A stretch of DNA of 7,187 bases. Source: Deltaproteobacteria bacterium RIFOXYA12_FULL_61_11. GTDB taxonomy: Bacteria > Bdellovibrionota_F > JAHFAK01 > YA12-FULL-61-11. Where the stretch lies: contig MGSU01000224.1 in the NCBI GenBank assembly GCA_001799195.1, forward strand, positions 1 through 7,187, read 5' to 3'. Position 1 is the first letter of the stretch; each line of letters starts with the position of its first letter. The translations under genes and the position numbers were made by a program. Below the pieces are notes generated by a model that saw only the letters and a program-made list of their open reading frames with translations, was not told where the DNA came from and ran no database searches. This document shows, one piece after another, positions 1 through 6,988 of this stretch.

Positions 1-699
1 CTTGACCGAGCTCACGCCCAAGCGCGGGTTGACGTGGAGCACGCCGAACGCCCACAGGGGTCCGGCGAGGATGCCAAGGAGGTCGACCTCGTGTCCGTCC
101 ACCAGGCGCTCTTCGGCGCCAGCACCTCGCACACCCAGTTCGGCGCGACGGTAACGGCCGGTGGTCGTGCGCACGACGAGTCCGAGGTCCTCGTCGAAGA
201 CCTGGGGCAGCACCAGTTTGCTCTCCAGACCGGCCCCGCCGTCGACGAGCTCGCCGACCAGCACCAGGAGTTCTCCCCGACCGCGCAGATTGGCGTCCAG
301 ATAGGCAAGGCCGTAGCGCTCGCGCCAGCCGTCGAGGGTTGCGAAGGGAGCAAGGACCGGGGACCAGCGCTCCCGGAGGTGCAGGTGCAGGGTGGTACCC
401 GCCACGTCAGCGTGGACTTCATGGAAGAGGTGGGTGCGGAGCAGCCGGTGCTCGAGTCGGCGTAGGTCGTCGGGGGCAGCCAGCCGGCAAGGCAGGGGGC
501 AGCCGAGCAGCTCGAGGACGTAGTCGGGTTCGGTGCGGGAGAGGCCGTGCAGGCGGATCTCCTCGATCACGATCCGGTCGGCTTCCGGGGCTGCCGGCGC
601 ATCCTGGCCACGGCCGAGGGTCGCGAGGGTCAGGCCCAAGAAGACCATCAGGCCTGAGCGCTGGGCAAGGCCCCGGTTCGAAAACCGCCGTTCCCTCAA
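1..699 (-). CDS. Omp85/TamA-like outer-membrane protein, N-terminal part (cut by window edge)
   Basis: Only the first 233 codons are in the window; the rest lies beyond position 1. Residues 1-30 form a signal peptide: a basic stretch (RERRFSNRG) followed by the hydrophobic LMVFLGLTLATLG. Residues about 43-112 read as one POTRA domain (IVIEEIRLHGLSRTEPDYVL, then DLRRLEHRLLRTHLFHEV, ending in LHLRERW). After about residue 125 the pattern RYGLAYLDANLRGRGELLVL is typical of the first strands of an Omp85 beta-barrel, with alternating hydrophobic residues following. Proteins of this family insert or secrete proteins at the outer membrane. I chose the TTG start at 699-697 because it restores the basic n-region and has GAGGG eight bases upstream; the ATG at 648 would leave a signal peptide without positive charge. 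Two cysteines (67 and 71) within the POTRA domain are unusual. It follows the HDOD gene by 11 bases, so co-transcription is likely. With only one visible POTRA, assignment to BamA, TamA or another subgroup is not possible. Confidence 0.75.
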   Translation of the reverse strand, partial: MRERRFSNRGLAQRSGLMVFLGLTLATLGRGQDAPAAPEADRIVIEEIRLHGLSRTEPDYVLELLGCPLPCRLAAPDDLRRLEHRLLRTHLFHEVHADVAGTTLHLHLRERWSPVLAPFATLDGWRERYGLAYLDANLRGRGELLVLVGELVDGGAGLESKLVLPQVFDEDLGLVVRTTTGRYRRAELGVRGAGAEERLVDGHEVDLLGILAGPLWAFGVLHVNPRLGVSSVK

Positions 700-2017: not shown

Positions 2018-3271
2018 ATGAACCGTATTGTGCTCACCGTCATCGTGCTCTTCTGCGCCGCCGGGGCGCTGGCCAGAGAGGTCACGGTCGAGGTTCCCAA
2101 GCTCAAGCTGCGCACCGCGCCGAGTTTCCTAGCCACGCTCGCCGGCGAGGTGATGCAGGGAGCCACGCTGACCGTGGTCGGGAGCAAGGGCGCCTGGCTC
2201 CAGGTGCGCGACGCGAAGGGCAACACCGGCTGGTTGACCGAGAACTCGCTCACCTCCAAGAGCGCCGGGCTGCTCAAGGCCGGTGACCCCGGCAAGCTGC
2301 AAGGGCTCTCGACGGCCGAGATGACCGCCTCGATCCGCGGCGTGCTCGAGGTCAAAGACTCGTGCGGGACCAAGCTCCCGGCCTCGATCAAGACCAAGAT
2401 CGAGCAGGACCTCGCCTTTGTGTTCGGGGTCAAGCAAGCTCCCGGGCTCGAGACCTTCCTGTCGGCCAGAGGCTTGAAACCCCGCGAACACGATGGTTCC
2501 GGCGTCAAACCTCCCGTGGACCTGGACACCGAGATGCAGATCGCCCAAGCTTCGCTGTTGCATGTGCTCGGGAGGAATAAAGTCCTGCGCAACGAAACCC
2601 TGGGGCGTTACCTCTCGGCCCTGGCCGACCACCTCGGCGGCGTCAGCGATCGCACCGACCTGCCCTACTACATCATCCCTCTCGACAGCAAAGAAGCCAA
2701 CTCCTTCTCCCTGCCGGGCGGGTTCATCTTCATCACCCGCGGCCTGTTGGCCATGCTTAAGGACGAAGCCCTGCTCGTTGCGGTGTTGGCCCACGAAATC
2801 GTGCACGTTGCGAGGTACCATGGTCTTGCCGAACTCGAGCGCACAGAGGTGCGGACCAAGAGCCATGCGGCCAAGGCCGAGGCGGGTCTGGACGCGGAGC
2901 TGAGCAAGCTCGGTAGCGATGCCAAGCTGAAGGAGCGCGCCTATGAGGATCTCGCGGGCGACGCCTGCAAGCTCAGCACCCTGGTCAACAAGTGGGTTTC
3001 CTCCGGTCGGGCGCAGGCCGACGAGTACGAAGCCGATCGGTATGCCACCGTCTACCTCTACCGTGCCGGGTACGACCCCGCCGCGTTGACTCGTTTCCTG
3101 ACCCTGGTCGGGCAGAGGGGAAAAGCCGAAGTCCAAACCTTCGCCGCCCATCACCCTCCGACCAGCGAGAGGATCAAGAAGGCGAACGCCTATATCTCTG
3201 GTGAGGGGCTAGAGGTGAAGGTCGAACTCGCCCCCCTGCAACGCACCTACAAACTCAACGTCCAACTCTGA
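2018..3271 (+). CDS. Secreted SH3-domain M48 family zinc metalloprotease
   Basis: A protein of 417 residues with a signal peptide (MNRIVLTVIVLFCAAGALA) likely cleaved after residue 19, leaving a soluble periplasmic enzyme. Residues about 21-80 form a bacterial SH3 domain (KLKLRTAPSFLATLAGEVMQ, GAWLQVRDAKGNTGWL). Residues about 81-165 are not recognised. The M48 peptidase domain follows at about 170-395, with the metal site HEIVH at 259-263, the third ligand motif EYEAD at 336-340 (E336 as ligand), and HHPPTSERI at 378-386, a conserved M48 feature. The SLPGGFIFITRGLL block before the metal site also fits this family. Relatives such as BepA and LoiP of Escherichia coli act in outer-membrane protein quality control. 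The SH3 module may bind peptidoglycan or protein partners. It starts the plus-strand series and precedes the first LPP20 lipoprotein by 42 bases, so a role in processing or assembling those envelope proteins is reasonable but inferred. Confidence 0.93.
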   Translation: MNRIVLTVIVLFCAAGALAREVTVEVPKLKLRTAPSFLATLAGEVMQGATLTVVGSKGAWLQVRDAKGNTGWLTENSLTSKSAGLLKAGDPGKLQGLSTAEMTASIRGVLEVKDSCGTKLPASIKTKIEQDLAFVFGVKQAPGLETFLSARGLKPREHDGSGVKPPVDLDTEMQIAQASLLHVLGRNKVLRNETLGRYLSALADHLGGVSDRTDLPYYIIPLDSKEANSFSLPGGFIFITRGLLAMLKDEALLVAVLAHEIVHVARYHGLAELERTEVRTKSHAAKAEAGLDAELSKLGSDAKLKERAYEDLAGDACKLSTLVNKWVSSGRAQADEYEADRYATVYLYRAGYDPAALTRFLTLVGQRGKAEVQTFAAHHPPTSERIKKANAYISGEGLEVKVELAPLQRTYKLNVQL

Positions 3272-3298
3272 GACCCGAGCGATCCGAACAACCCCCCA

Positions 3299-3309
3299 GG
3301 CCGGAGGCC
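3299..3309 (+). promoter_or_regulatory. Ribosome binding site inside a small hairpin
   Basis: GGCC (3299-3302) and GGCC (3306-3309) can pair around a GGA loop, so the Shine-Dalgarno GGAGG (3303-3307), six bases before ATG at 3314, lies partly in the stem. This may lower translation of the large lipoprotein gene. The stem is only four pairs. Confidence 0.35.
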
Positions 3310-3313
3310 CCCC

Positions 3314-4882
3314 ATGACCGCGAGAAGCGTCGGAATCTTCGTCCTGTCCCTGCTCCTGGCCTGTGCCGGAAAACCGCCCAGACCCGATTGGACCGTGCGC
3401 GGCGCGCATCCGGCCTACCCCAACGAGCGATTCCTGGTAGGGCTCGGTCAGGCCAAGGTAGTCGCCGGGGACGAGGTCGAGGCCAAGCGGTTGGCCGAAC
3501 TCGATGCCCTCAATCAGATCGTGTCCCAGATCAAGGTCACCATCGCCGCCGAAGTCCAGACCTCGCTGAAGGCGGTGATGACCCTGACCGCGGGCAAGAG
3601 CGAGGAGACTTCCGAGCAGACCTTCGCCGAACGCATTACTGCCAAGACTAATCTCGACGGCATTGAGGGCGTGACCGTGGTCCAGCGCCATCGCGAGAGA
3701 GACGTACTCTTCGCTCTGGCCGTCCTGGAACGCGAGAAAGGCGCGTTCTCCCTGGCCGCTCGCATCAACGAACGCAGGGCCGCCATCGGCGAGGGGATGG
3801 CCTCGGCCGAGACGGCGCTGAAAGAGGGGAAGGTCTACCAGGCCCTGGCCTCGCTCTTCCCCCTGCGCGGTCAGCTCGAGGACCTGGCTGCGACCGAGAG
3901 TATCCATCGGGTGGTCGCCGGTCGCGTGGCCGAGCCCTGGGGCCAACCCGTGTCCATGGCGCAGCTTGAGGCCAAGGTCACGGCCGTGGTCACCGCCCTG
4001 TCCCTGCGCAAGGTGTCAGGGGATGCACAGCGCGGCGCGCTCGGCACGGCCTTGGGCAAACCACTGATCGCAAAACTCGAATACGGCGAAGGCAAGGGCA
4101 AGAAGAAGAACGCCGTGCCCGGGTTCCCGATGCGCTGCCGTATGGCCGAGGGTTCAGCGACCTTGACCGAAACCCTGGTGAGCGAGGCCGACGGTACGAC
4201 CACCTGTCGGATATCCGCCACCATCCCCAGCGGGACCCGCCATAACCGGGTGGTGCTCGAACCCGATCTGTCCGCCCTCGGCGGCGGCAACTTCGTCCTG
4301 GTCCCGCCCTCGGCCGAGTTCGGCTTCACCCTGCCGACCAAGGCCGATGTGCGCATTCTGGTCCAGGTGGTGGAGAAGAACCACGGCAAGGTCTCGGCCT
4401 CGGCGACCGTCCAGCCGGCCCTGGCTGCTGCGATCACGGCTGCCGGCTTCCGGGTCGTCGATAAACCCAAGGGCGGCGCCCGGGCCCTGTCCCAGGCGAC
4501 TCCCGAGCTTGCCGTCCTGCGCAAGAGTTTCGGCAAGCAGGCCGAGTTCCTGGTCTACGGCGACATCTCGACCGCGTTGCTCTCCCAACCCGGCCCGGAC
4601 AACCGACCGCCATTCTGGACCTCGGAGGCCCATGGTTTCCTGCGGTTGGTCGATCTGCGCCACGGGGTCATGCTCCAGGCCTTCGACCTTGCACCCTTCA
4701 ATCCCGCGGCCGGGGCCGCCAGGTCCCCGGATGCCCTCGACACGCGCGGGTTCGGCAACGACCAAGATACCTCCGGGCTAAAGGCTCTGCAGACCTTCTC
4801 CTCGGCCGCGACCCCGAAGGTGGTCACCGCGCTCGAGCAGGCCTTTGGCACCCCCCCGGTTTCAACCAAAGCACAACGTTGA
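3314..4882 (+). CDS. Large LPP20-type lipoprotein with Ig-like and CsgG/FlgT-like regions
   Basis: A protein of 522 residues. The signal peptide ends in the lipobox LLAC, with Cys17 as the lipid attachment site; the next residue is Ala, so by the enterobacterial rule it would go to the outer membrane. Residues about 24-150 form an LPP20-type domain (PDWTVRGAHPAY, RFLVGLGQAKVV, then a helix AKRLAELDALNQIVSQIKV). Residues about 155-215 are helical (AETALKEGKVYQALASLF). Residues about 247-320 look like a bacterial Ig-like fold of the Big_1 kind: PLIAKLEYG, a short Lys-rich loop, then GSATLTETLVSEADGTTTCRI. Residues about 343-425 (VRILVQVVE, LAAAITAAGFRVVD, AEFLVYGDIST) resemble the alpha/beta fold of CsgG, LpoB and the FlgT middle domain. 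The C-terminal tail is not recognised. The first domain is fairly clear; the other two are calls by eye. The protein is the first of three related lipoproteins and probably anchors an envelope complex. No enzyme motif is seen. Confidence 0.75.
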   Translation: MTARSVGIFVLSLLLACAGKPPRPDWTVRGAHPAYPNERFLVGLGQAKVVAGDEVEAKRLAELDALNQIVSQIKVTIAAEVQTSLKAVMTLTAGKSEETSEQTFAERITAKTNLDGIEGVTVVQRHRERDVLFALAVLEREKGAFSLAARINERRAAIGEGMASAETALKEGKVYQALASLFPLRGQLEDLAATESIHRVVAGRVAEPWGQPVSMAQLEAKVTAVVTALSLRKVSGDAQRGALGTALGKPLIAKLEYGEGKGKKKNAVPGFPMRCRMAEGSATLTETLVSEADGTTTCRISATIPSGTRHNRVVLEPDLSALGGGNFVLVPPSAEFGFTLPTKADVRILVQVVEKNHGKVSASATVQPALAAAITAAGFRVVDKPKGGARALSQATPELAVLRKSFGKQAEFLVYGDISTALLSQPGPDNRPPFWTSEAHGFLRLVDLRHGVMLQAFDLAPFNPAAGAARSPDALDTRGFGNDQDTSGLKALQTFSSAATPKVVTALEQAFGTPPVSTKAQR

Positions 4883-4895
4883 ACCCCGGATCAGG

Positions 4896-4924
4896 TTGAC
4901 AACGCGGCGCGCATCTTCTAGGAA
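4896..4924 (+). promoter_or_regulatory. Candidate sigma-70-type promoter for the two small lipoprotein genes
   Basis: TTGACA (4896-4901) is a perfect -35 element; 17 bases later TAGGAA (4919-4924) matches TATAAT at three of six positions. It lies in the 105-base gap after the large lipoprotein gene, with expected transcription start near 4931. It would let the downstream genes be expressed apart from the protease and the large lipoprotein. The weak -10 keeps confidence modest. Confidence 0.4.
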
Positions 4925-4943
4925 GAACGGGAAGGCAGAAGCA

Positions 4944-4959
4944 GGGGGGATGACCCCCC
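4944..4959 (+). other. Perfect G6/C6 hairpin in the leader of the small lipoprotein gene
   Basis: Six G (4944-4949), the loop ATGA (4950-4953) and six C (4954-4959) form a fully paired stem. There is no T-run after it, so it is not a standard intrinsic terminator. It ends 16 bases before the Shine-Dalgarno at 4976 and may stabilise the mRNA or modulate its translation. Confidence 0.55.
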
Positions 4960-4975
4960 ACCACCACGAACGTAC

Positions 4976-4984
4976 AGGAGGAGG
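4976..4984 (+). promoter_or_regulatory. Strong ribosome binding site
   Basis: AGGAGGAGG is a near-ideal Shine-Dalgarno; its first AGGAGG ends six bases before ATG at 4988. It is the strongest such site in the window and suggests that the small lipoprotein is made in quantity. Confidence 0.7.
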
Positions 4985-4987
4985 CTC

Positions 4988-5560
4988 ATGAAAACCCTCG
5001 TCACCATGACAGCCATCCTCGCCCTGGCCCTGACCGTGGGCTGCGGCGGGAAGAAGAATCCCGAATGGACCATCAAGGGCGCTGCCGCGTTCCCGGGCGA
5101 GAAGGGCAAAGCCCTCTTCGGCGTGGGCCGGGCTCCCTTCTCGGTCAACCAGGTACTTATGTATAAGCAGGCTGACACCGAGGCCAGGAAAGAGATTGCC
5201 AAGGTCCTCGAGGTTTATGTCGCCGGTCTGACCAAGATCTTCCAACAAGAGACCCAGGACTTCCAGAACCCGGACCAGACCGAATCCGTGCAGCTCTTCT
5301 CGGACGTGAGCAAAGAGGTCACCTCGACCACGCTGCAAGGATCTCAGGTCATCGATCATTTCGAGGACAAAGAGGCAAAAATCATGTACGGCCTGGCAAA
5401 ATTGGAGATCGACGACGTGCTCAGCACCTTCAAGTCCAAAGCCGCGGATCTAGCTAGGCGGCGCAAGGCAGCGTTCATCGAAGGCAAGACCGAAGATGCG
5501 CTGAAGGCCCTGGACGAAGCGATCGATCAGAAGGCGAAGGTCGAAGCCGCTCAACAATGA
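4988..5560 (+). CDS. Small LPP20-like lipoprotein
   Basis: A protein of 190 residues with a lipoprotein signal peptide (MKTLVTMTAILALALTVGC), Cys19 being the lipidated residue; Thr at -3 is slightly off the lipobox consensus. The mature part starts GGKKNPEWTIKGAAAF and continues ALFGVGRAP, followed by a helix YKQADTEARKEIAKVLEVYV. This is the same opening block as in the gene upstream, so the two are paralogues of the LPP20 family (H. pylori Lpp20 and FlgP-like outer-membrane lipoproteins). Residues 110-145 (SKEVTSTTLQGSQVIDHFED, AKIMYGLAKLEID) complete the LPP20-like fold. The C-terminal 45 residues are charged, Ala-rich and probably a long helix. It has its own candidate promoter, a leader hairpin and a very strong ribosome site, and is followed after 15 bases by the third lipoprotein gene. 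The molecular role of the family is largely unknown. Confidence 0.75.
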   Translation: MKTLVTMTAILALALTVGCGGKKNPEWTIKGAAAFPGEKGKALFGVGRAPFSVNQVLMYKQADTEARKEIAKVLEVYVAGLTKIFQQETQDFQNPDQTESVQLFSDVSKEVTSTTLQGSQVIDHFEDKEAKIMYGLAKLEIDDVLSTFKSKAADLARRRKAAFIEGKTEDALKALDEAIDQKAKVEAAQQ

Positions 5561-5575
5561 GCTGAGTCCCGGTTC

Positions 5576-6112
5576 ATGCCCCTCTGCACTTCCGTCCTTT
5601 TCTGCAACTCCCTCGTACTCCTCATGGTGCTGTGCGGTTGTACCGCCCATCGCACCGATCCCTGGGGAGGCCGCATCACCCCTGCACCGGCCTGGGTTCG
5701 TGCCCTACCCGAGCGCCCGGGCTATCTCTTCGCGGTCGGGAGTTGCCCCAAAACCTATCATCCAGAAGATGCGCGCAAGAACGCCATCGACGACGCGCGG
5801 GTCCAATTGGCCAAGTCGATCCGGGTCGACATACGCTCCATCGCTGTATCCGAGGTCTCCAGCGGCTCCCTCGGGTCCACGTATTACGAACTCTCGAAGG
5901 AGAGCCTCGACCTAGCTGTGCAGCATTCCCAGGTCGAGGCCTTCTGGTACGACCTGGAGGGAGAGGTAGGCTCCAAAGACACGGCCTATGTCCTGGTCAG
6001 AATGGGCCTATCCCCGGCGAGTCCGGGAGCGTCGGATCGGAGTCCGGGAGCGACGGAGCCCAGATCCGAAGCGCCTCTCGACCACCTCTCCGATGCGTCC
6101 TCAGAACCCTGA
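5576..6112 (+). CDS. Divergent LPP20-like lipoprotein with low-complexity tail
   Basis: A protein of 178 residues. The hydrophobic N-terminus (SVLFCNSLVLLMVLCGC) ends in the lipobox LCGC with Cys22 as the lipid site; there is no basic residue before it, which is unusual for a signal peptide. Residues about 37-145 repeat the LPP20-like layout seen in the two genes upstream: PAWVRALPERPGYLFAVGSC, then a helix ARKNAIDDARVQLAKSIRVD, and a closing strand DTAYVLVRMGL. Similarity to the other two is weak but the order of elements is the same. Residues 147-178 are a Ser/Pro/Ala/Glu-rich tail built partly on a 21-base in-frame duplication. The ATG at 5576 has no good ribosome site and lies 15 bases after the previous stop, so translation is probably coupled. 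Only this ATG gives a complete signal peptide; the next in-frame ATG lies inside it. Confidence 0.68.
   Translation: MPLCTSVLFCNSLVLLMVLCGCTAHRTDPWGGRITPAPAWVRALPERPGYLFAVGSCPKTYHPEDARKNAIDDARVQLAKSIRVDIRSIAVSEVSSGSLGSTYYELSKESLDLAVQHSQVEAFWYDLEGEVGSKDTAYVLVRMGLSPASPGASDRSPGATEPRSEAPLDHLSDASSEP
6019..6057 (+). repeat. In-frame 21-base tandem duplication
   Basis: Two 18-base blocks (6019-6036 and 6040-6057) differ at one base and are spaced 21 bases apart, exactly seven codons. They encode SPGASDR and SPGATEP in the tail of the third lipoprotein. Confidence 0.75.
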
Positions 6113-6130: not shown

Positions 6131-6988
6131 ATGAACAAGGTACTCTACGAGGTCCGAGACGGTGTGGCCGTCCTTACCGTGAACCGCCCCGAGGCGCTCA
6201 ACGCCCTTGATCTCGAGACCCACGCGGCCATCAAGGAGGCTGCGCTCCGCGCCGAGGGAGCTCGCGAAGTCGCCGGGATACTCCTGACCGGGGCGGGAGA
6301 GAAAGCCTTTGTCGCCGGCGCAGACATTAAAGAATTGGCCGCGGCTCGATCCGCAGACGACCTCGAACGTCTGTCCCTGTTCGGGCAAGACGTCTTTGCG
6401 ACGCTCGCCGCTCTGAAAAAACCGGTGTTGGCCGCGGTCAATGGGTTTGCCCTCGGCGGCGGCTTAGAGTTGGCCATGGCCTGTCATGACCGCGTCCTCT
6501 GTGAGAATGCGCTGCTCGGCCAACCCGAGGTCAATCTCGGTATCATCCCCGGGTACGGCGGCACCCAACGTCTGCCGCGGCTGGTGGGCTTCGAACGCGC
6601 CTGGTCCATGCTGCGCACCGGCCGGCCGATCAAAGCAGCGGAGAGTGCGGCTGCCGGGCTCGGCACGTTGCTGCCTCGCGAGGGCTTCCTCGATGCGGCC
6701 AAGACCAGACTCAAGGTTATGATCGACCACCGACCCCGGAGGCTCGAACCCGCACCCCTGCCCGTGCCGGAAATGCCACCCGAGCTGGAACTCGGCCACC
6801 TGAGCCGCAGTATTGATGCCCTGCTCCAGGCCGCTATCCTCGAAGGCCTCCGCCTGCCGCTCGAGCAGGGGCTTCGCCTCGAGGCCCGCTACTTCGGCGC
6901 CTGCCACGAGACTGAAGACCTGCACCTCGGGCTGCGCAATTTCCTCGAGCAAGGCCCCCGGCACCCGGCCCCGTTCGTCCACCGCTGA
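6131..6988 (+). CDS. Enoyl-CoA hydratase/isomerase (crotonase) family protein
   Basis: A protein of 285 residues with no signal peptide, so it acts in the cytoplasm. Family members typically hydrate trans-2-enoyl-CoA to 3-hydroxyacyl-CoA in fatty-acid breakdown and related routes. FVAGADIKEL (60-69) and NGFALGGGLELAMACH (104-119) supply the backbone of the oxyanion hole and the CoA-binding region. Glu113 and Glu133 (in QPEVNLGIIPGYGGTQRLPR) are 20 residues apart, the same spacing as the two catalytic glutamates of rat mitochondrial hydratase, so hydratase activity is likely. The protein is about 25 residues longer than the usual 255-260; the excess is a Pro-rich segment at about 201-222 before the C-terminal helices, which end in TEDLHLGLRNFLEQGPR. 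A similar linker occurs in some fused hydratase-dehydrogenase proteins, but no dehydrogenase follows here. AAGGA ends nine bases before the ATG, and the gene is 18 bases after the third lipoprotein. The true substrate cannot be read from sequence. Confidence 0.92.
   Translation: MNKVLYEVRDGVAVLTVNRPEALNALDLETHAAIKEAALRAEGAREVAGILLTGAGEKAFVAGADIKELAAARSADDLERLSLFGQDVFATLAALKKPVLAAVNGFALGGGLELAMACHDRVLCENALLGQPEVNLGIIPGYGGTQRLPRLVGFERAWSMLRTGRPIKAAESAAAGLGTLLPREGFLDAAKTRLKVMIDHRPRRLEPAPLPVPEMPPELELGHLSRSIDALLQAAILEGLRLPLEQGLRLEARYFGACHETEDLHLGLRNFLEQGPRHPAPFVHR

Follow-up and report, generated by a model that had tools for sequence, protein, structure and literature searches.

By profile comparison and a domain tree, the lipoproteins BIG, SMALL and THIRD, encoded side by side in a fragmented metagenome-assembled genome, are members of one family, LPP20, as old subfamilies that form a conserved unit across distant lineages. 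Our best explanation, to which we give about an even chance, is that the three genes make up a conserved module whose products, LPP20 proteins anchored in the outer membrane, probably co-assemble as a scaffold on the periplasmic side of that membrane. The window, i.e. the whole stretch of DNA analysed, is the complete 7187-bp contig C224 of this genome (4.64 Mb over 342 contigs, ~87% complete).

The plus strand of the window carries a run of five genes, in which the lipoprotein genes follow an SH3-M48 protease gene and precede an enoyl-CoA hydratase gene (Table 1), with intergenic gaps of 42, 105, 15 and 18 nt; SMALL and THIRD share a reading frame, with 15 nt from the SMALL stop codon to the THIRD start (5558-5576). 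ORF positions and export signals bear out the original prediction of four co-directional genes for exported proteins at 2018-6112. On the minus strand, one gene encodes an HDOD protein and another (window 1-699) is truncated; the start of the latter resembles a POTRA/Omp85 protein by eye, and its Pfam search was without match. Promoter and terminator scans of the window performed no better than shuffles, and NCBIfam searches left all the envelope proteins of the window, as well as the three BIG, SMALL and THIRD homologues from locus L065, below cut-off. A defence-system reading was dropped because a PADLOC search gave no match.

Table 1 Features of the plus-strand gene run in the window.
Feature	Position	Strand	Basis
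SH3-M48 metalloprotease, exported, 417 aa	2018-3271	+	Pfam profiles; HEIVH and EADRYA motifs
BIG lipoprotein, 522 aa	3314-4882	+	PF02169 28.8 bits; AF2 model; fold matches
SMALL lipoprotein, 190 aa, single LPP20 domain and long C-terminal helix	4988-5560	+	PF02169 33.1 bits; AF2 model
THIRD lipoprotein, 178 aa, single LPP20 domain, low-complexity tail	5576-6112	+	PF02169 24.7 bits; hhalign; tree
Enoyl-CoA hydratase	6131-6988	+	18 nt downstream of THIRD

The LPP20-type identity proposed for the three lipoproteins was upheld by the PF02169 (LPP20) profile for BIG and SMALL, which score above the curated Pfam cut-off of 25.9 bits, and indirectly for THIRD, which scores slightly below it. Despite this score, THIRD is placed in LPP20, and not in an unrelated family, on the grounds of its homologue in L068 (28.9 bits), its profile-profile match to SMALL (hhalign, 98.7%, E 4e-16) and its position in the tree; the corresponding comparisons gave 98.8% for SMALL with BIG and 96.3% for THIRD with BIG. 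The opening block that the proteins were said to share was found in all three (P-x-W, then GVG, GLG or AVG, then an Ala-rich helix), and so were the lipoboxes, seen by pattern reading alone as LLAC in BIG (Cys17), TVGC in SMALL (Cys19) and LCGC in THIRD. An Asp after the lipobox cysteine is present in none of the three, and we infer that they are sorted to the outer membrane. The predicted signal peptide of THIRD has no Lys or Arg ahead of the hydrophobic stretch, i.e. no basic n-region, which makes it the weakest export signal among the lipoproteins.

The grouping of these genes recurs in other loci, where gene calls came from a simple ORF caller and borders are approximate. A second, diverged set in the same genome (contig C198, L034) consists of BIG, SMALL and then a divergent third gene; its BIG is 29% identical to that of the window, its third gene is closer to BIG than to THIRD by profile comparison, and the set adjoins a CsgG-PEGA protein and a redoxin. 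This CsgG-PEGA protein and a kinase-PEGA protein, both beside the second triad, are encoded at L034:5330-9210. The order BIG-SMALL-THIRD is also found in G054 (L039), while L065 and L067 have SMALL-THIRD-BIG followed by a CsgG-like gene and a redoxin, L056 (on the same contig as L068) has SMALL-THIRD and L082 has BIG-SMALL-LPP20; partial sets occur in L071 and in L041, which shares its contig with L069. Moreover, G053 (L038) encodes a SMALL-BIG-like fusion as well as a protein with LPP20 in triplicate, and these fused versions, together with the conservation of the unit, favour one complex. Triads are absent from some LPP20-bearing genomes and the THIRD position is divergent, both of which count against our best explanation.

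In a tree built on the LPP20 domain (56 rows, with several long branches that make fine placement unsure), THIRD formed its own group (94/98), SMALL appeared as one group (71/17, in 66% of bootstrap trees), and BIG grouped separately (99/96) together with the 340-aa LPP20 proteins of what we call type-B clusters (LpoB-COG3014-LPP20, often joined by SMALL and a trypsin-like protease). BIG alone did not occupy one side of a branch, the type-B group being nested inside it, and the window BIG paired with the second-copy BIG (95/82). The four labels needed 3 changes on this tree, the lowest number possible, against a mean of 28.3 when shuffled. The separate groups point to old subfamilies rather than recent tandem copies.

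AF2 models of BIG (mean pLDDT 76.7, pTM 0.55, 11 sequences) and SMALL (mean pLDDT 75.7, pTM 0.61) predict a multidomain architecture for the former and an Lpp20 fold for the latter. The SMALL model matched H. pylori Lpp20 (5ok8) with Z 12.5 and rmsd 2.4 over 110 residues, and the N-terminal part of BIG matched the same structure with Z 10.6 and rmsd 3.3 over 110 residues. As modelled, BIG would comprise an LPP20/SHS2 domain (24-138), a helical hairpin (140-202), an Ig-like sandwich (~228-341) with fold matches to invasin/intimin Ig domains (Z ~9), and a TolB-N/CsgG/LpoB-like domain (~342-512) with fold matches to TolB, FlgT, PelC, CsgG and HpaA (Z ~9-11). The C-terminal domain of the window BIG had no Pfam match, whereas its homologue in L082 scored above cut-off for LPP20, LpoB (34.8 bits) and CsgG (28.9 bits) and below it for Big_1, backing the predicted architecture independently of the AF2 model. 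Both ends of BIG were matched, in the same order, by FlgT (3w1e) and HP1454 (4kzs). The alignment of BIG 39-513 to FlgT 3w1e 1-267 had Z 10.6 and an rmsd of 22 across domains, so that the likeness is limited to domain order; moreover, the match ends at residue 267 of the 356 of FlgT, BIG has an Ig insert, and FlgT_N and FlgT_M gave no Pfam match to the BIG of the window at E values of 1 or less.

FlgP, Lpp20, FlgT and dodecin have an SHS2-like fold in common, and ring formation has been linked to an insert that follows the helix and is a beta-hairpin in FlgP (PMC12222027). This hairpin was not seen in our models, which have a low-confidence helix at SMALL 97-116 and BIG 99-110, a result that counts against a co-assembling scaffold. 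A close parallel in gene content comes from H. pylori, where the HP1454-HP1456 (Lpp20) operon encodes a multidomain exported SHS2 protein (4kzs) and a single-domain lipoprotein (5ok8), matched by BIG and SMALL; the window differs in its 522-aa BIG with an Ig-like insert, its extra lipoprotein of the THIRD subfamily and its other gene surroundings. HP1454 and HP1456 were pulled down with FapH and FlgP and showed no interaction with each other in two-hybrid tests (PMC11756786), the latter result counting against the co-assembly reading. Among the flagellar ring proteins of Vibrio, the SHS2 then TolB-N-like order of FlgT (3w1e) is also present in BIG, and the LPP20 family fold of FlgP is also present in SMALL (PMC12222027); in contrast to the Vibrio FlgT/FlgP/FlgO rings, the window triad lies outside a flagellar locus and has homologous counterparts in genomes that gave no FlgI match. 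FlgP of C. jejuni is bound by PflC, a scaffold protein derived from HtrA (PMC12222027).

In the co-assembled scaffold that we favour, SMALL and THIRD would act as single-domain subunits, and BIG would combine the same LPP20 domain with an Ig-like spacer and a TolB-N/CsgG/LpoB-like domain reaching towards peptidoglycan or a partner; the assembly may take the shape of a ring or disc, and its peptidoglycan-facing role is likewise conjectural. LPP20 proteins are familiar chiefly from flagellar discs and H. pylori. A wider and doubtful proposal is that the three LPP20 subfamilies, one of them with a TolB/CsgG/LpoB-like domain, make up an undescribed non-flagellar outer-membrane scaffold, from which the flagellar FlgT/FlgP discs were possibly drawn. 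If true, the conserved triad without FlgI, its FlgT-like member and its LpoB-bearing sister clusters would indicate a general envelope role for LPP20, and the origin of the flagellar discs would become testable.

The lipoproteins might instead belong to the flagellar motor of this bacterium, forming an accessory disc or ring in the manner of FlgP and FlgT, a reading that we consider quite improbable. It had been claimed that no flagellar gene is visible, which is true of the window and wrong for the genome, where a flagellar cluster (L103) encodes FlgF, G, A, H, I, J, K and L (read by eye, except for the FlgI profile match, E 5e-137). This host cluster, the FlgT domain order of BIG, the fold common to FlgP, FlgT and Lpp20 (PMC12222027) and the copurification of HP1454/HP1456 with flagellar FapH/FlgP (PMC11756786) all speak for a motor component, and so does a SMALL-type LPP20 gene in G070 that is ~0.7 kb away from an oppositely oriented FlgI gene (L096:6231-7367 and 7914-8489); the flagellated host and the G070 gene also count against our best explanation. 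However, the stretch of the host flagellar cluster that was read contains no LPP20 gene, one genome carries two diverged triads, and triads, fusions and partial sets are found in genomes without a FlgI match. FlgI was matched in 24 of 58 other LPP20-bearing genome entries (at least two of which repeat a genome) and not in G290 and G291 (L065, L067), G015 (L068), G041, G053 and G001; the listed completeness of the last four is 95-100%, and a single missing family in MAGs is suggestive rather than conclusive. The original prediction, which noted no curli gene and proposed a non-flagellar use of the family, is favoured in its non-flagellar half by these triads and related clusters, and the module is thus probably non-flagellar. 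The genes could also be tandem copies within an abundant family of outer-membrane lipoproteins that form no joint complex, which would fit the general tendency of LPP20 genes to cluster and the low identity among the copies, but the subfamilies predate the species split in the tree, each position is taken by its own subfamily in different lineages, and LPP20 domains are fused in G053, which leaves this alternative with a small probability.

Somewhat less improbable, although still unlikely, is a module that regulates peptidoglycan synthesis, in which the LpoB-like domain of BIG would activate a synthase while SMALL and THIRD anchor or tune it. The above-cut-off LpoB match of the L082 homologue, the presence of LpoB itself in type-B clusters and that of MltC_N-SLT transglycosylases in some LPP20 clusters are in line with such a role; against it, the C-terminal domain of BIG equally resembles TolB-N, CsgG, PelC and FlgT-M, so that synthase binding is not implied, the window holds no peptidoglycan enzyme gene, and the host genome has its own LpoB outside the window. 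Least likely of all is the proposal that the M48 protease functions together with the three lipoproteins as a unit, processing them or checking their quality as BepA does for outer-membrane proteins. The protease has a signal peptide (MNRIVLTVIVLFCAAGALA), Pfam matches to SH3_3 (E 7e-8) and Peptidase_M48 (E 8.6e-23) and apparently complete zinc-protease motifs (HEIVH and the downstream EADRYA), its gene lies 42 nt from BIG on the same strand, and a different exported protease, trypsin-like and with His/Asp/Ser motifs, is often found between the LPP20 genes of type-B clusters. However, a PF01435 search of 49 LPP20-bearing genomes, host included, found M48 in 42, and near an LPP20 gene in none of the 48 others (positions of PF01435 and LPP20 matches, distances compared by eye), the closest noticed outside the window being ~31 kb away in G151. 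Moreover, the surveyed LPP20 clusters contained no M48, the second triad of the same genome (L034) has no adjoining M48, and G001, the sole same-class genome compared, gave no M48 match. The suggested processing or checking of the lipoproteins is therefore unsupported, and the neighbourhood expected to be conserved was found with its protease and lipoprotein genes apart in other genomes, which largely refutes a conserved unit that includes the protease. BepA and the window protease are both exported M48 proteins with zinc motifs, but BepA has TPR where the window protease has SH3, and the window protease scored 59.2 bits in the NCBIfam BepA equivalog test (cut-off 570), with no TPR match. Most likely, this protease is an incidental or lineage-specific neighbour, outside the conserved module.

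The type-B clusters resemble the window triad in that LPP20 proteins whose C-terminal domain is similar occur together with a SMALL-type lipoprotein, and differ from it in having LpoB as a separate gene and, often, a trypsin-like protease in place of M48. The gene after LpoB, which we take to be COG3014-like, had no significant Pfam match, and searches of the literature collection used here found nothing on LpoB/COG3014/LPP20 clusters, on LPP20 with CsgG or with penicillin-binding protein activator, on FlgP with LpoB, or on PF02169. To judge from contig ends, the host genome probably has a type-B cluster split between C230 and C177, and in G001, of the same class, a fusion of LpoB with a COG3014-like part precedes LPP20. 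In Nitrospirota and Myxococcota MAGs (L073, L074, L075, L077, L079 and L081), LpoB, COG3014-like, LPP20, trypsin-like and SMALL LPP20 genes are clustered, L077 being short and without the LpoB end, and the type-B trypsin-like proteins retain their His, Asp and Ser motifs. Some LPP20 clusters contain SLT lytic transglycosylases whose N-terminus is MltC_N-like (L083:3132-4277, L085:8265-9452 and L089:3630-4901).
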